Virus record (IMG/VR): IMGVR_UViG_3300042547_000849
Location: 1 to 36,808 of that record
Strand: one strand, 5' to 3'
From: a virus
Length of the DNA: 36,808 bases
The position numbers and the translations under genes are program-made. This document shows positions 13,087 to 36,808 of this stretch, piece after piece; positions within the stretch are counted from its first letter, which is position 1, and the number at the start of each line of letters is the position of its first letter. The notes under the pieces were generated by a model that was not told the DNA's origin, did not search any database, and saw nothing but the letters and a program-made list of their open reading frames with translations.

Positions 13087-13458
13087 CTAACGGTAAAAGC
13101 GTTCGGTATCCACCGGCTGAACAACCGGGGCGGTGTCCCGACTGCGGAGTACAGCCGCAAACACTGTTGCCTTGCCGGTTGTATCATCGTATTCGTTAGC
13201 GTCCATCCACGCCTTGATTTCTTCAGTGGTCATGGCGTCAGCTTCGGCGCGAAAGAATTGCTGCTTTTGTGCGTAGGTCTGGAAGTTGTCGCTGTCCGGT
13301 TTTGCTATCAGTAGGTCCAAATCGCATTCGGCCAGGCCCTCTTTTAGTTTGGGTGGGTTGTTGCGGTGTACCCATTCGCGTGTACGCCGCTCTTTTTCGA
13401 TCATGTCCTTGGTGGTCTTGTAGAGTTTACGCAACTCGTGGCGGGTGATGGTACTCAT
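13087..13458 (-). CDS. Unknown early protein coupled to replication initiator
   Basis: This 123-aa protein starts MSTITRHELRKLYKTTKDMI. It is strongly charged and helical in the first half (EKERRTREWVHRNNPPKLKEG) and ends with DTTGKATVFAAVLRSRDTAP and QPVDTERFYR. There is no signal or membrane segment. The ATG at 13458 overlaps the initiator stop as ATGA and has GGAGG upstream, so the two proteins are probably made together. A helicase loader or another replication partner would fit the position, but the sequence shows no motif for it. Confidence 0.65.
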   Translation of the reverse strand: MSTITRHELRKLYKTTKDMIEKERRTREWVHRNNPPKLKEGLAECDLDLLIAKPDSDNFQTYAQKQQFFRAEADAMTTEEIKAWMDANEYDDTTGKATVFAAVLRSRDTAPVVQPVDTERFYR

Positions 13459-14774
13459 GATTTTGCCTCCGGTAGACAAAATTGAACGTTGACCGATTGG
13501 CCCACCAGGCTGGACAGGATGCGCCCAACCTTGACTGATAGTCGGTTTTGCAGCCAGTCGAGCGACTGGCCATTCGGGGCGGTAATCCACCAGGTGGCGC
13601 CATCGACGGCCATGACTGTGGCACCATGCACCCATGCCTGGTACGTCGCCACAGGCATGGTAAGCTTTAGCTCGGCCAACGTGCTGGCCCAGTGCGCAAC
13701 GTGTGGGTCAGTGGCCGCCGGCTCGGTGCCAGCTACTGTCACCACCGGTGATGGCGCCGGGGGAAGTTCCGCCGCTTCGCTAATTTCCGGTGCGGCTTGC
13801 GGGTAGACTAGATCCAGCGTACCGGCCTGAATGGCGTGTTGCAAGGCCGCCACATCCTGTGGGTCGAGCCAGGCGCCTTCGCCACGGGCGACCTTTGCCC
13901 GGATGAAGGCAACGTGGTTGGTGACGCCCGCAAAGGTTTTGCTATAGGTCGCTTCAATGCGGGTGGCAATCCATGCGCCTTCCATGCCGCCGTGATAGGC
14001 TTGTAGGCGCATGATCCAGAGCCAGGTGTTGAGCCGCGCAACGCCGGCGTCATCCAGGCCCGCCAAGTAGCGTTGATGGCCGTTCCAGGTTGGTGCCATG
14101 GTGGTGATCAGCAACGCAGCAAAGGCTCGTAACGGATCAACCGTTTCGGTTACGGCTTCTTCCTCACCACCACCACCATTCGGGATGGCTTCGGTTCGCG
14201 TATTGGTGGTGGTCTTATCCATATCTTTATGGTCTTTATGGTCTTTATGGTCTTTATGGTCTTTATGGTCTTGTACCTCATTTTCCAGAGGTAGCGCGTT
14301 CATTAAAAGCGCGGTGGTGTTCACCACAGACGCGGTGGTGTTCACCACAGACGCGGTGGTGTTCACCACAGACGCGGGGGTGTTCACCACAGACGCGGGG
14401 GTGTTCACCACAGACGCGGCGGGGGAACCTTTCTTTTTTGGCTGGTCGGCGCTGTTGCGCTGCCAGATCTCATCATCCAGTAGTTCAACCGTTACGCGCT
14501 TTGAGCCGCCCGCCTCGGCGGTTTCATGCAGGCGGATATAGCCCTTTTCGGCCAGGCGGCGCCGAACCTGCGCCACGGCGCCCACGGAAAAGCCACAGGC
14601 CGCCGCCGTGGCCCGTGTGCTTTCGCTACAGGCGGCGCTCTGCTCACCGCAGACGCGCACGTAATGCCCATACAGGCGGTATTCATACAGATCCAATTCA
14701 TCATCGGCAATGTTGGGAACAATGTGAAAGTTGGAGCGGCGGCGCTTGGTGAAGATGTTTTGTGTTTCGTTCAT
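13455..14774 (-). CDS. Replication initiator with winged helix and DnaA domain-I-like C-terminus
   Basis: This 439-aa protein has a winged helix at residues of about 20-105 (DELDLYEYRLYGHYVRVCGE, then TRATAAACGFSVGAVAQVRRRLAEKGYI in pieces), as in phage replication initiators. Residues 120-155 are five copies of ASVVNT(P/T), and 170-184 are DHK triplets. A helical middle domain follows. Residues of about 360-435 match the DnaA N-terminal domain pattern: WASTLAELKLTMPVATYQAW, then WWITAPNGQSLDWLQNRLSV and VNVQFCL. In DnaA that domain contacts the DnaB helicase. The repeats at DNA level are 21-bp and 9-bp tandem arrays that may be the origin itself. Upstream is the 73-aa gene; downstream a coupled partner. 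Confidence 0.8.
   Translation of the reverse strand: MNETQNIFTKRRRSNFHIVPNIADDELDLYEYRLYGHYVRVCGEQSAACSESTRATAAACGFSVGAVAQVRRRLAEKGYIRLHETAEAGGSKRVTVELLDDEIWQRNSADQPKKKGSPAASVVNTPASVVNTPASVVNTTASVVNTTASVVNTTALLMNALPLENEVQDHKDHKDHKDHKDHKDMDKTTTNTRTEAIPNGGGGEEEAVTETVDPLRAFAALLITTMAPTWNGHQRYLAGLDDAGVARLNTWLWIMRLQAYHGGMEGAWIATRIEATYSKTFAGVTNHVAFIRAKVARGEGAWLDPQDVAALQHAIQAGTLDLVYPQAAPEISEAAELPPAPSPVVTVAGTEPAATDPHVAHWASTLAELKLTMPVATYQAWVHGATVMAVDGATWWITAPNGQSLDWLQNRLSVKVGRILSSLVGQSVNVQFCLPEAKS
14222..14275. repeat. 9-bp AT-richer tandem repeats, candidate unwinding element
   Basis: About five 9-bp units of GGTCTTTAT, the first imperfect and the last partial, run in frame through the initiator gene as DHK triplets. 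They lie about 35 bp from the 21-bp iterons, a spacing like that of the AT-rich part of the lambda origin. Confidence 0.8.
14311..14415. repeat. Five 21-bp iterons in initiator gene, candidate origin
   Basis: Five perfectly spaced 21-bp units each contain GGTG-TT-CACC. In three of them the dyad is extended to GTGGTG-TT-CACCAC. Two units carry a T-to-G change. The spacing equals two helical turns, so bound proteins would lie on one face of the DNA. They encode the ASVVNT repeats. This layout matches the lambda ori inside gene O. Confidence 0.85.
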
Positions 14775-18316: not shown

Positions 18317-18439
18317 CTATTCACTCTCCTGTCTGTGATACAAAACTACCAATCCGATCAGCGTAACGGACAGGGACAGCAGCAACCCCGCCTGCCCTGC
18401 CGACAAATGCACAGCTTGCGTTATCCATAGGTCAATCAT
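18317..18439 (-). CDS. 40-aa single-pass membrane peptide
   Basis: This short frame starts at 18439, sharing the A of the translocase stop (TAATG), and ends just before the next gene. It encodes MIDLWITQAVHLSAGQAGLL and then LSLSVTLIGLVVLYHRQESE. One clear membrane helix, coupled start and exact fit between neighbours support a real gene. Function unknown. Confidence 0.62.
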   Translation of the reverse strand: MIDLWITQAVHLSAGQAGLLLSLSVTLIGLVVLYHRQESE

Positions 18440-19830
18440 TAATCGCCCCCTGTCCCTGTTCGCTGCGGACGTTGCAAGCTAATAATCTTGCCGTCGCCCC
18501 CTAACGACTGATTGATCCACTCTAAATACTGTCCGTTTTTGGAACCATAAACCATCCGACACAGTTCGGATTTGCTTGCGCCGTCAGCCATCAAGCGCCG
18601 GCATTCAACAGCTTCGCCCCGGGTGAGTGGTCGCTTTTCGCGCAACGGGAACAGCGGTTCTGCGTGCGTAACCGAACCGGTTCTGACCGGCTCTAGACCG
18701 GTTCTAGAACCGGTTCTGAGTGGTTCTAGAACCGGTTCTAGCGGTTCTACCTCTGGTGAAAGTGCTGTCGGTGTCAAAACCGGTTCTAGAACCGCCGCAG
18801 GTGTTACCGTACAGTATCGTTGATTGATCATCGCCACGGCGTGCCGCTCGTCTAGGCTGTCCATGTAGTAACTTTGAAAGCGGAACAGGTCTAACCCTTT
18901 GAGGAAGAGGAAGGCGCCGTTACCCGGCAGCATGTCGGCGCCGGCATTCTTGCGCCGGGTGGCCGTGTACGATTGACCAGCGCTCACCGCGCCAACTAGG
19001 CGTAACGGCACATTCGCCTTCATCATCGTTCCCATGCCACCCTCTTCGGTCGGCTGTTGCGTGCAGACCACACAGTTGATTAACTTGCTGCGCCCGATGG
19101 ACATAATATTGCCCAATGTTTTGATGGCGCCATTGATCTGCGTCAGTTGCGCCAGTTCATCCACCACCAGCAGCAACCGATATGGCTTGAAGTGCGGGCG
19201 ATCAATGCGCGCCCGCACTTCGGCGGCCACCCGTTCAACCGCGTCGGCCACATCGCCCAACGTCCCAGCAAACGCTAGAACGTGCGGTAGATTGGCGTAG
19301 GGCCGCAGATCCTCATTCTTGGGATCAATCAGCACAAGCTTCAATTCATTGGGTGGCGTGGCATAGCAAAGGGAGGTGATAAAGTTGCGAATCAGCACCG
19401 TCTTCCCGCTACCGGTCTCGCCGGCAACGAGGATCTGCGGAATCTCGGCCAGGCTAATATGTACCGACTGCTCGCCATCGTGATGACTAATGCCCAGCGC
19501 AGCGCTGTGCGGCGGCGTGCGGCGCATGACCGATAATTGCCAGGCCAACGGCTTGCGGGCCGGATGTTCCGCTTCCAGGCGCAGCAGAATGTCATCAAAG
19601 CGCAGATAGGTGCGCTTGCGCCGGCTCTGGCTAATCGCCCGCATCAATTCCGGCAACGCTTTGGCAATATCGGCGCCCGTCGTCTTACCGTGCAGCTTCA
19701 GCCCAAAGAAGGCCAACTGGTCGCCGCCCGGCGTGCAGCGGCGTGGGTCGATGCTGGCGCCAATCTGCAAGCGTTGCAGTTGGCTGTTTAAAGCCTTGGC
19801 GTCTTGAATAATTTGTTGACGTAGTTCCAT
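18439..19830 (-). CDS. FtsK/TraB-like DNA translocase
   Basis: This protein of about 463 aa is a RecA-fold motor of the FtsK/SpoIIIE/TraB group. Walker A is GETGSGKTVLI (about residues 137-147), followed by KLVLIDPKNEDLRPYANLPH and Walker B LLLVVDELAQL (DE near 224-225). The family-typical NCVVCTQQPTEEG segment follows. The N-terminus lacks membrane helices. The C-terminus has a linker coded by an 8-bp repeat array and then a helix-turn-helix-like region (LTRGEAVECRRLMADGASKS). This resembles the C-terminal recognition domains of FtsK and TraB. AAGGGGG supports the ATG at 19830. Such genes belong to conjugative elements or chromosome segregation; their role in a phage is open. Confidence 0.88.
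   Translation of the reverse strand: MELRQQIIQDAKALNSQLQRLQIGASIDPRRCTPGGDQLAFFGLKLHGKTTGADIAKALPELMRAISQSRRKRTYLRFDDILLRLEAEHPARKPLAWQLSVMRRTPPHSAALGISHHDGEQSVHISLAEIPQILVAGETGSGKTVLIRNFITSLCYATPPNELKLVLIDPKNEDLRPYANLPHVLAFAGTLGDVADAVERVAAEVRARIDRPHFKPYRLLLVVDELAQLTQINGAIKTLGNIMSIGRSKLINCVVCTQQPTEEGGMGTMMKANVPLRLVGAVSAGQSYTATRRKNAGADMLPGNGAFLFLKGLDLFRFQSYYMDSLDERHAVAMINQRYCTVTPAAVLEPVLTPTALSPEVEPLEPVLEPLRTGSRTGLEPVRTGSVTHAEPLFPLREKRPLTRGEAVECRRLMADGASKSELCRMVYGSKNGQYLEWINQSLGGDGKIISLQRPQRTGTGGD
18654..18794. repeat. Array of CCGGTTCT/AGAACCGG repeats inside translocase gene
   Basis: Five exact CCGGTTCT octamers (18677, 18698, 18710, 18732, 18780) and four copies with one mismatch (18654, 18687, 18720, 18741) lie mostly 9-12 bp apart. 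Several pair head to head as CCGGTTCTAGAACCGG. They encode the EP/RTGS-rich linker. The octamer length and helical spacing fit recognition by an FtsK-gamma or TraB-type domain. Confidence 0.85.
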
Positions 19831-19847
19831 TACACCCCCTTGTGAAG

Positions 19848-19876
19848 ATGCCTTCAGGACAAGGATCGGGTATAAT
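19848..19876 (+). promoter_or_regulatory. Plus-strand -10 box for a candidate small RNA
   Basis: A perfect TATAAT lies at 19871-19876 on the plus strand. The expected -35 region (about 19848-19853) is poor. The box is the loop of a partial inverted repeat (AGGACA..CGGG with CCCG..TGTCCT), which could bind a regulator. Confidence 0.4.
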
Positions 19877-19882
19877 GGCCCG

Positions 19883-19961
19883 TGCCTGTCCTGTTGTCTG
19901 TTAACAGGATTAGGAAGCCGTAGGTTCGTGTGCAAGCACTAGCCTACGGCGCTTTTTTTGC
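19883..19961 (+). ncRNA. Candidate plus-strand small RNA
   Basis: A transcript begun at the TATAAT box would run about 75-80 nt. It would include a CCTGT..ACAGG hairpin and end at a clear plus-strand terminator. It lies opposite the leader of the translocase mRNA, with no reading frame of note, so it could act as an antisense regulator. The weak -35 is the main doubt. Confidence 0.45.
19917..19959 (+). terminator. Plus-strand rho-independent terminator
   Basis: GCCGTAGG pairs with CCTACGGC around an inner stem and is followed on the plus strand by GCTTTTTTT. Its T-run is on the side opposite to the early operon's direction, so it ends rightward transcripts. Confidence 0.8.
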
Positions 19962-22532: not shown

Positions 22533-23285
22533 ATGCGTAAAGTGCTGCGTATTCTTGCCTGGATCTTTTTCTGGCCTGTGCTGTTGCCCGTTTGGTTGTC
22601 TTACAAATACCCAACGTGGTTACGGTGGCTATTCTGGGCTGTCGCCATTATCTTCTTGGCTGGTGCCATTTCTGCGGAGAATACCAACAACGGCGTCTTG
22701 TCGGGTGGGCTTTTCTTGGTGAATCTGCTCGCCATTGGGCTATATCTGCTAAACAAGATCATCACCTTTGTTGCCGGCAAGCTACGGTCAACGCCCGTGT
22801 CGTCTGCTACCCCCCTTGCTATTGCCCCTATGCCTGCCGCTGCCACTGCCGTTTCCATAGCGGCCCATCAACCTACTCAGCTTCTGCCATACCAACGATC
22901 AACACAAGCCGATTTGAGCAGCTTGGATGCGCTGGAAGGGATTGCGTTTGAACACTTTGTCGCCGATCTACTGGCTTCGCGTGGCTACAAAACGGAAGTC
23001 ACCCAAGCCTCCAATGACTATGGTATTGATGTGATTGCGCTTAAAGACAACATTCGGTTTGGCGTTCAAGTGAAGCGGTATACAGGAAGTGTTTCGCGTA
23101 CCGCCATCAGTGACGCCGTGGCCGGGTCACGTCACTGGCAGTGTCACGCCAGTATGGTGGTCACCAATAGCTATTTCACCAGTTCCGCCAAGCAACTGGC
23201 CGATTCAACCGGCTGCATCTTGATTGACCGCGCCGTTCTCGCCCAGTGGTTGGCGGAAAAGAATTTGACTAGCGTTCCTGCATAA
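22533..23285 (+). CDS. Membrane-anchored Mrr-like restriction nuclease
   Basis: This 250-aa protein has about three membrane helices in residues 1-85 (RILAWIFFWPVLLPVWL, WLFWAVAIIFLAGAIS, FLVNLLAIGLYLLNKI). A linker and a Mrr-type nuclease domain follow (FEHFVADLLASRGYKTEVTQ, then DYGIDVIALKDN..FGVQVKRY with the Asp and Gln-x-Lys active residues). The end is SSAKQLADSTGCILIDRAVL. Mrr enzymes cut modified DNA. A membrane-bound form next to the att site suggests a lysogenic-conversion gene that blocks incoming DNA. It reads opposite to the lytic genes. Confidence 0.85.
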   Translation: MRKVLRILAWIFFWPVLLPVWLSYKYPTWLRWLFWAVAIIFLAGAISAENTNNGVLSGGLFLVNLLAIGLYLLNKIITFVAGKLRSTPVSSATPLAIAPMPAAATAVSIAAHQPTQLLPYQRSTQADLSSLDALEGIAFEHFVADLLASRGYKTEVTQASNDYGIDVIALKDNIRFGVQVKRYTGSVSRTAISDAVAGSRHWQCHASMVVTNSYFTSSAKQLADSTGCILIDRAVLAQWLAEKNLTSVPA

Positions 23286-34790: not shown

Positions 34791-34825
34791 AATCACGAAT
34801 CACGAATCACGAATCACGAATCACG
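34791..34825. repeat. Five 7-bp tandem repeats (AATCACG)
   Basis: Five exact AATCACG units lie in the 50-bp gap between tail tube and chaperone genes. The period of seven would disturb any frame, which fits a non-coding gap. Arrays like this occur as intergenic repeats in many bacterial genomes, and they may alter spacing or expression of the chaperone gene. Confidence 0.9.
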
Positions 34826-34827
34826 AA

Positions 34828-35808
34828 TTACAACGTCGTCAACGTATTATTCACCTGAATTTCCGTACTCTTTCCCCACGTCGTATCATGCACCTGATCA
34901 AAGGTCCACTCAATGGCGTACACCCCTTCCTGATCCTTAAACTCGCTGACCGCTGTCACGATCCCACAGATCGAATGCTGGAAGAGCCACGTATGGGGCG
35001 TGGCAATAATCGGCCCGGTTGCCCGTAGCTGGATAAAGCGCTTCGTCCCCGCCCGCATCTGCGTCAACAACCCCATCCCAACCGCGTCGGCCGCCATCAG
35101 CAGTTTGAACTGTGCCTTGGGTTCCAACTCCACATGGGCCGCCCAACTCGTCTGTGCCGAGTCAATCGGCCACACCGGCCCCACTTTGCTGGCCACTTCG
35201 TAATCGGCCTGGAAGACGCGCAAAAGCTTCGTTGTTCCCAGCGCCGCCGACGTTGCATCCATAAAAATCGCGACTTCGGTCGGCAGGACTGGCTGAAGGG
35301 CAATCTCCGTAGGCGTCGCCGTCAGCGTGACCCCATCAATCAACCGCTGCCCGATCAGCGATCCCTTGGTCGTGAACTCATCCCGACCAAGGGTATAGCC
35401 CCACGAATCGAAAATTCCGTAGCCCATCTCATGCGCTCGCACAGCCGATCCCACCTCCACAGTATAGGTGCGCGCCGAATCCGGGGCCGCCTGCGCCGGC
35501 GAAAAGGTCCATTTGTACGCAGTGGTTACGCCCTGCTGCACCGGCGCCGCATAGTTAAAAATCGAAGAGAGCGGATAGACGATGTCTGTATAGACCATCT
35601 GCCCCTGCATCCCCGCCGTCGTCCACTCCTTGCCCTGGGCGCCCACCGTCGCATACTTGCCGCCCAGCGGTCGATACATCTTCACCGCCGTCTGGATTGT
35701 CGGGCTGATCTGCGTCGCCAATAGCTTCCGATTGGCCGGCACAATCGTACCCGGCGTAACCTCCACCCCGATCTGAACAACCTGAGTAATCCCCGCTCGC
35801 TCTGACAT
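34828..35808 (-). CDS. Major tail tube protein
   Basis: This 326-aa protein starts MSERAGITQVVQIGVEVTPG and has the family-typical TPGTIVPANRKLLA.QISP opening. The body is beta-rich (GQMVYTDIVYPLSSIFNYAA) and it ends in EFKDQEGVYAIEWTFDQVHD. Tube proteins stack in hexameric rings to make the tail. AGGAGGAG precedes the ATG. Its position between tail terminator and chaperones agrees with the siphovirus order. Confidence 0.9.
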   Translation of the reverse strand: MSERAGITQVVQIGVEVTPGTIVPANRKLLATQISPTIQTAVKMYRPLGGKYATVGAQGKEWTTAGMQGQMVYTDIVYPLSSIFNYAAPVQQGVTTAYKWTFSPAQAAPDSARTYTVEVGSAVRAHEMGYGIFDSWGYTLGRDEFTTKGSLIGQRLIDGVTLTATPTEIALQPVLPTEVAIFMDATSAALGTTKLLRVFQADYEVASKVGPVWPIDSAQTSWAAHVELEPKAQFKLLMAADAVGMGLLTQMRAGTKRFIQLRATGPIIATPHTWLFQHSICGIVTAVSEFKDQEGVYAIEWTFDQVHDTTWGKSTEIQVNNTLTTL

Positions 35809-36246: not shown

Positions 36247-36578
36247 CGCACCGCCTCCGTCACCACCTTAGAAAGGCGCCGCTTCAACTTCGCCACCGCC
36301 CGCTCCCCCGCCGGCGTCATAAACGGACGGGCCGGCAGCCGCACCGTCCCAAACTCATGGAAGTGGCCGTAAAACATCAACGACACCACCGACCAACCGC
36401 CCCGGATTCGGCGCACCTTAATCCCCTTCACCAGGTCGCCCGTATCCTTCGGCGCCAACCGCCGCGCCTCATCCCGCGCCTCGGTCGCCACTTCCTTCAT
36501 CGTCGCCGGCGCCGTCACCCGCAACGCATTCCGCACCGCCGGCAACTGATTTTTTGTAATCTGAAAACTACCCGCCAT
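36243..36578 (-). CDS. HK97 gp10-like tail completion protein
   Basis: This 111-aa protein matches the HK97 gp10 family: VATEARDEARRLAPKDTGDL, then VKGIKVRRIRGGWSVVSLMF and YGHFHEFGTVRLPARPFMTP, ending in RRLSKVVTEAVR. It completes tail assembly at the head-tail junction. The start is uncertain between 36578 and the preceding ATG at 36581. The first codons are repeated at the window's left end; in the circular molecule the structured gap and the adaptor gene lie upstream. Confidence 0.92.
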   Translation of the reverse strand: MAGSFQITKNQLPAVRNALRVTAPATMKEVATEARDEARRLAPKDTGDLVKGIKVRRIRGGWSVVSLMFYGHFHEFGTVRLPARPFMTPAGERAVAKLKRRLSKVVTEAVR

Positions 36579-36808
36579 CATCCATCCCATCTAGCTATTG
36601 GTCACTTGGTGGGGAAGACGGAATCGAACCGCCACCAACGCCGCGCCGTGCTTGCCGGCGAGAAGCGCCGCTGCACCCCTCAACACAACGGCAGCGCCAG
36701 TGCCGCCAGGCATCCCCAAGACTGACTACGCGACCAACCGCCTAAACCACCTCACGACACATCACCACCTGTTCCCGCTGCCGCCCCTCCGGGTCACCAA
36801 TCGTGATA
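36570..36808. repeat. Terminal direct repeat, right copy
   Basis: This copy equals 1-239 apart from five bases (36697, 36733, 36766, 36778 and 36796). It holds the start of the gp10-like gene, a second copy of the structured gap and the C-terminal end of the adaptor gene (complete in the left copy). It closes the circle at a unit length of about 36,569 bp. Confidence 0.95.

Follow-up and report, generated by a model that had tools for sequence, protein, structure and literature searches.

Does this phage carry its replication origin inside the gene for its own replication initiator, and if so, how might the initiator act there? The question arises for virus record IMGVR_UViG_3300042547_000849, analysed over its whole length (36,808 bases; hereafter the window), in which two tandem-repeat arrays lie within a gene that the initial annotation interpreted as harboring a lambda-style origin. 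Our analysis supports the interpretation, to which we assign a probability of about 0.82, that the region is a phage replication origin inside the initiator gene, where iterons and an unwinding element would be bound by the phage's own initiator, whose putative DnaA domain I would engage the host replisome.

Phage genome and initiator protein

The window contains genes for a terminase, a portal protein, a holin, an endolysin and an integrase, indicating that it represents a temperate tailed phage. Related contigs run past the window ends and have ~239 bases of both ends in common, and this crossing of the ends suggests that the genome is probably complete and either circular or terminally redundant. 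Positions 1–239 and about 36570–36808 resemble a direct terminal repeat, and the junction is spanned by two related contigs. Its large terminase shares 68% identity with a terminase from a contig of a metagenome-assembled Anaerolineae genome, a match that points to a host within the Chloroflexota.

The initiator gene (13455–14774, minus strand) encodes 439 amino acids and was assigned by matches to phrog_270 and DnaA_N. The domain order of the protein is a winged-helix-type N-terminus, a repeat-bearing linker, a helical middle and a putative C-terminal DnaA domain I (DnaA_N). In a PHROGs profile search, residues 11–185 matched phrog_270, a replication initiation protein family (E = 3.4e-5). 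The N-terminal, putatively DNA-binding domain (codons 1–108; 14451–14774, minus strand) was delimited from this match and from a low-confidence structure model, for which AlphaFold was run on the single sequence without an alignment, yielding a poor model. The predicted helices (residues 29–43, 51–59 and 64–77) and strands (residues 80–86 and 92–98) follow an order that, at low confidence, would be that of a winged helix (residues 29–98). The helical middle domain (codons 205–300; 13875–14162, minus strand) likewise comes from the low-confidence model and was aligned with relatives.

For the C-terminal domain (codons 362–435; 13470–13691, minus strand), the assignment to DnaA domain I is based on a Pfam match and on alignment with DnaA proteins. 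Residues 362–418 matched DnaA_N (PF11638) with an E value of 1.3e-3 and 18.8 bits, which is under the Pfam gathering cut-off of 24.6 bits. This stretch aligned over 74 columns with the corresponding domain of DnaA from Anaerolineae (20 proteins; top identity, 43%), and a protein search gave tblastn-type matches to dnaA in 334 of 396 genomes. In the alignment, the DnaA proteins have an aromatic residue shortly before a conserved Asp-Trp; the window initiator has Gln there. This putative domain I, which the initial annotation missed, is the most distinctive part of the protein.

Directly downstream, a 123-residue ORF (13087–13458, minus strand) occupies the position of lambda P, with its ATG overlapping the initiator stop codon (ATGA); a longer frame of this ORF gave no family match in Pfam or PHROGs.

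Repeat arrays in the initiator gene

Two arrays were located by Tandem Repeats Finder (TRF) on the minus strand. The first, at 14310–14419, consists of five 21-bp iterons (5.2 copies, 98% matches) and has the top TRF score within the window (206). Each unit contains a 14-bp dyad, GTGGTG-TT-CACCAC, and the dyads start at 14314, 14335, 14356, 14377 and 14398, a spacing of exactly 21 bp, or two helical turns; in those at 14377 and 14398, a G replaces a T in the outer arm. The second, at 14224–14272, contains five AT-richer 9-bp units (5.4 copies of TCTTTATGG, 100% matches, TRF score 98) and is a candidate DNA-unwinding element on the basis of its repeats and its predicted stability, being the second least stable 45-mer site in the 36.8-kb window. 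Dinucleotide shuffling of the window (40 replicates) gave TRF scores of 59 at most, compared with the 206 and 98 observed. These repeats agree with the initial annotation, as does their order in the coding sense, from the N-terminal domain through the 21-bp units to the 9-bp units. The close adjacency of the arrays also stands, although the spacer measures 37 bp (14273–14309) and not the ~35 bp given previously. A GC-skew switch, which had been suggested as a check on the origin, was not seen at the array site, a result that speaks against the origin reading. Directly 3' of the 9-bp array in the coding sense, CACC-rich and GGTGG-rich runs (14164–14215) resemble inverted iteron half-sites.

Both arrays are in frame in the ORF at 13455–14774 (minus strand), with seven codons per 21-bp unit encoding ASVVNT[T/P] five times and three codons per 9-bp unit encoding KDH five times. 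Since every repeat in the window is in frame, with periods of 21 and 9 that are both multiples of three, the window sequence alone would allow an origin of the repeats at the protein level or by slippage; they could be coding minisatellites in a disordered linker, either tolerated there or favored as a flexible tether, and would have no role as DNA sites, with the replication origin lying elsewhere. The near identity of the copies, as from recent duplication, is consistent with this explanation. In addition, codon shuffles encoding the same protein still reached array scores of 158 (21-bp) and 94 (9-bp), indicating that a large share of the scores is forced by the peptide repeats. In contrast, the summed dyad symmetry of the five copies, which are duplicates of one unit and not independent, was matched by none of 2000 synonymous shuffles, suggesting that the dyad symmetry is not dictated by the peptide.

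DNA-level constraint in relatives

The initial annotation proposed aligning homologues and asking whether the repeats are kept at the DNA level. Copies of the gene itself in IMG/VR were near-identical records only, with no diverged homologue found, so that for the window phage the argument for DNA-level constraint comes from the codon choice in the dyads. One record, L125, which is 98% identical, stops before the initiator gene. Phage records searched directly, using either the whole protein or its N-terminus, yielded only weak DnaA_N-type matches or none, a scan for the 14-bp dyad across viral contigs was unspecific, and no initiator homologue was recognisable in those large-terminase relatives whose contigs include the upstream region.

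More distant relatives were obtained from the protein search of 396 Anaerolineae genomes, which returned mostly dnaA and also ORFs with an HTH-like N-terminal part and a C-terminal DnaA_N. A profile built from the middle and C-terminal parts added 12 ORFs from genomes and 21 viral loci, 14 of which have a C-terminal DnaA_N and were tested. The resulting set of 30 C-terminal DnaA_N ORFs, drawn from Anaerolineae genomes and IMG/VR (the window ORF, 14 viral, 12 genomic and 3 found in the initial genome search), is not one of independent members, as eleven genome-derived ORFs form one clade. Proteins with an N-terminal DnaA_N in a longer chain (L222, L226, L228, L230, L236, L153, L168 and L185) mostly lack linker repeats, except L185; five of these (L222, L226, L228, L230 and L236) were kept apart from the 30, and the repeat test described below was significant in two of the five.

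In this test, the codons of each amino acid were permuted within the ORF, and the densest 300-nt segment was scored for its number of 8-mer repeats that are inverted or out of frame. Such clusters exceeded the shuffles (p < 0.05) in 26 of the 30 ORFs, as opposed to 2 of 20 dnaA controls, and the window ORF itself gave p = 0.02. This version was run after a whole-gene 9-mer version, with which most relatives agree; there, the out-of-frame or inverted pairs in the window were not significant (p = 0.11), a result that counts against the origin reading for the window.

The form of the repeats in the relatives argues against that explanation. For L216 and L217, the period is 22 bp and the frame shifts between copies, and for L200 it is 16 bp; with these periods, a single reading frame is impossible to keep. 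Inverted copies were found in L181, L199, L155, L189–L191 and L195, and a single motif is read in two frames in L185. The sequence CCGATTTAC occurs at identical places in L189, L190 and L191, with a third copy inverted, and at similar places in L155 and L195. Within this subfamily, the linker Asp-Leu is encoded as GATTTA in 25 of 25 cases, while TTA makes up 15–32% of the Leu codons.

The unstable DNA follows the repeats as well. In all 30 ORFs, the least stable 45-mer falls inside the repeat cluster or no more than 106 nt 3' of it, whereas the same holds for about 7 of 20 dnaA controls, near the expectation from cluster size. Because about 30 distant relatives share the layout, the origin layout appears real and general. 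Together with this adjoining of the AT-richest stretch and the repeats across the family, the inverted, frame-shifted and non-triplet repeats of the relatives and the dyad symmetry in the window make coding minisatellites an unlikely account, and the reading as an origin inside the initiator, the core of the initial annotation, gains strong support. The comparison with relatives thus largely decides against a protein-level or slippage origin of the repeats; for the gene itself, it was confined to near-identical copies.

Alternative roles of the dyads at the DNA level

Iterons are frequently used for handcuffing and autoregulation, and the dyads look like dimer operators. They might therefore be operators, through which the initiator regulates itself or a different DNA-binding protein acts in copy control, partition or repression, without being the origin proper. 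The dyads, however, lie approximately 350–460 bp inside the coding sequence and not at a promoter, no full dyad copy was found elsewhere in the window, and the coupling of an unstable stretch to the repeats in 30 of 30 relatives suits an origin better. We consider operators even less probable than coding minisatellites. That the repeats form a structure in the initiator mRNA and thereby control its translation or stability is highly improbable: the 219-nt transcript of the repeat region folds better than shuffles (z = −3.4), though this is expected of any dyad array, whereas the iteron sequences and spacings differ wholly among relatives, the motif is found in either orientation and frame, and Rfam gave no match for the region.

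Comparison with known systems

Origins lie inside the initiator gene in lambdoid phages (gene O; PMC7466680) and in RepA_N plasmids such as pSK41 (rep; PMC5703833), and SPP1 gene 38 contains oriL (PMC6316719). These precedents indicate that the exceptional status initially given to the arrangement was overstated. In the window, likewise, the iterons lie in the initiator's own coding sequence and adjoin an element that is AT-rich and unstable by prediction.

With lambda O and its origin, the window gene shares mid-gene iterons that encode a linker and are flanked by an AT-rich tract (PMC7466680). Lambda O binds its iterons, and by analogy the same may hold for the window initiator (PMC7466680). 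Lambda has four iterons, unlike the five 21-bp units here, and the window initiator has a putative C-terminal DnaA domain I and no recognisable P-type helicase loader. Pfam and PHROGs scans gave no match to the lambda O family, as anticipated in the initial annotation, which described the two proteins as not obviously related. In SPP1, too, the gene encoding the origin-binding protein, gp38, contains direct repeats together with an AT-rich unwinding element; SPP1, however, supplies gp39 as loader and gp40 as helicase, no counterpart of which was found in the window, and a DnaA_N domain is not described for gp38 in the available portion of that source (PMC6316719). In pSK41-type RepA_N proteins, a winged-helix N-terminus binds Rep boxes in the middle of rep, the central part is a linker, and the host-specific C-terminus, a DnaD-like, DnaG-binding domain, contacts the replisome (PMC5703833). 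The C-terminus of the window initiator is instead a putative DnaA domain I, and a Pfam scan gave no match to RepA_N (PF06970). Bacterial DnaA would have this domain in common with the initiator, in which it stands at the C-terminus and is the sole DnaA part matched by Pfam, with no match to the AAA+ domain III or to the DnaA-box-binding domain IV.

The arrangement is known in kind; it differs in being joined to a putative DnaA domain I and in how widely it occurs in the Chloroflexota. No description of phage initiators combining a winged helix with DnaA_N was found in the open-access literature; one may exist elsewhere.

Proposed mechanism of initiation

By analogy with lambda O, SPP1 gp38 and pSK41 RepA, on which the binding and melting steps are modelled, dimers of the initiator would bind the five 21-bp dyad iterons through the N-terminal winged helix. 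Being two turns apart, the iterons would present the same helix face, and the nucleoprotein complex would strain the adjoining AT-richer 9-bp array, leading to its melting. The repeat-encoded linker may serve as a flexible tether, with the DNA largely setting its peptide sequence.

The C-terminal DnaA domain I would then bring in the host replisome, through the helicase or its loader. Recruitment from the host is proposed since the window genes that were searched yielded no helicase, primase or polymerase, and this step draws on the biology of domain I. In Escherichia coli, DnaA domain I recruits DnaB, which is contacted by Phe46; in Bacillus subtilis, domain I plays a different role. Helicase recruitment by the window domain I is put forward as a hypothesis, since the equivalence of its Gln position to Phe46 was judged by eye.

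Origin of the C-terminal domain

A domain I tree built on 75 columns, in which many forks are open, intermixes the initiators with host DnaA, and its well-supported branches require a minimum of four to five changes; the window sequence forms a long, unplaced branch. The DnaA_N of L227, which is C-terminal, is closely related to that of L228, which is N-terminal, suggesting that the domain moves between positions.

These results make it more likely than not that a modular class of initiators is common to phages and integrated elements of the Chloroflexota, with a winged helix that can be swapped and is accompanied by matching in-gene iterons and an unwinding element, and with a replisome-contacting DnaA domain I captured repeatedly from host dnaA. 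As iterons, unwinding element, recognition domain and host adaptor all lie in the gene, they would travel as one gene. If this is true, phages of a poorly cultured phylum gain a predicted replication origin, which could be recognized by a simple sequence rule: a C-terminal DnaA_N gene with dyad repeats in the linker and an AT-rich stretch that lies within these repeats or directly 3' of them. Such initiators would also be a natural test of DnaA domain I alone, cut off from DnaA and fused to a foreign DNA-binding domain, and its repeated capture would suggest that domain I by itself suffices to gain access to the host replisome.

Additional features of the window

Near the integrase gene, a gene at 22533–23285 has an Mrr-type restriction endonuclease domain and is a possible defence or moron gene. 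An array of GAACCGGTTCTAG-like palindromic repeats (18674–18749) is housed in an FtsK/SpoIIIE-like ATPase gene (18439–19935, minus strand), close to its 3' end. In addition, AATCACG is repeated 5.4 times without mismatch at 34791–34828, adjoining an ORF that ends at 34828.
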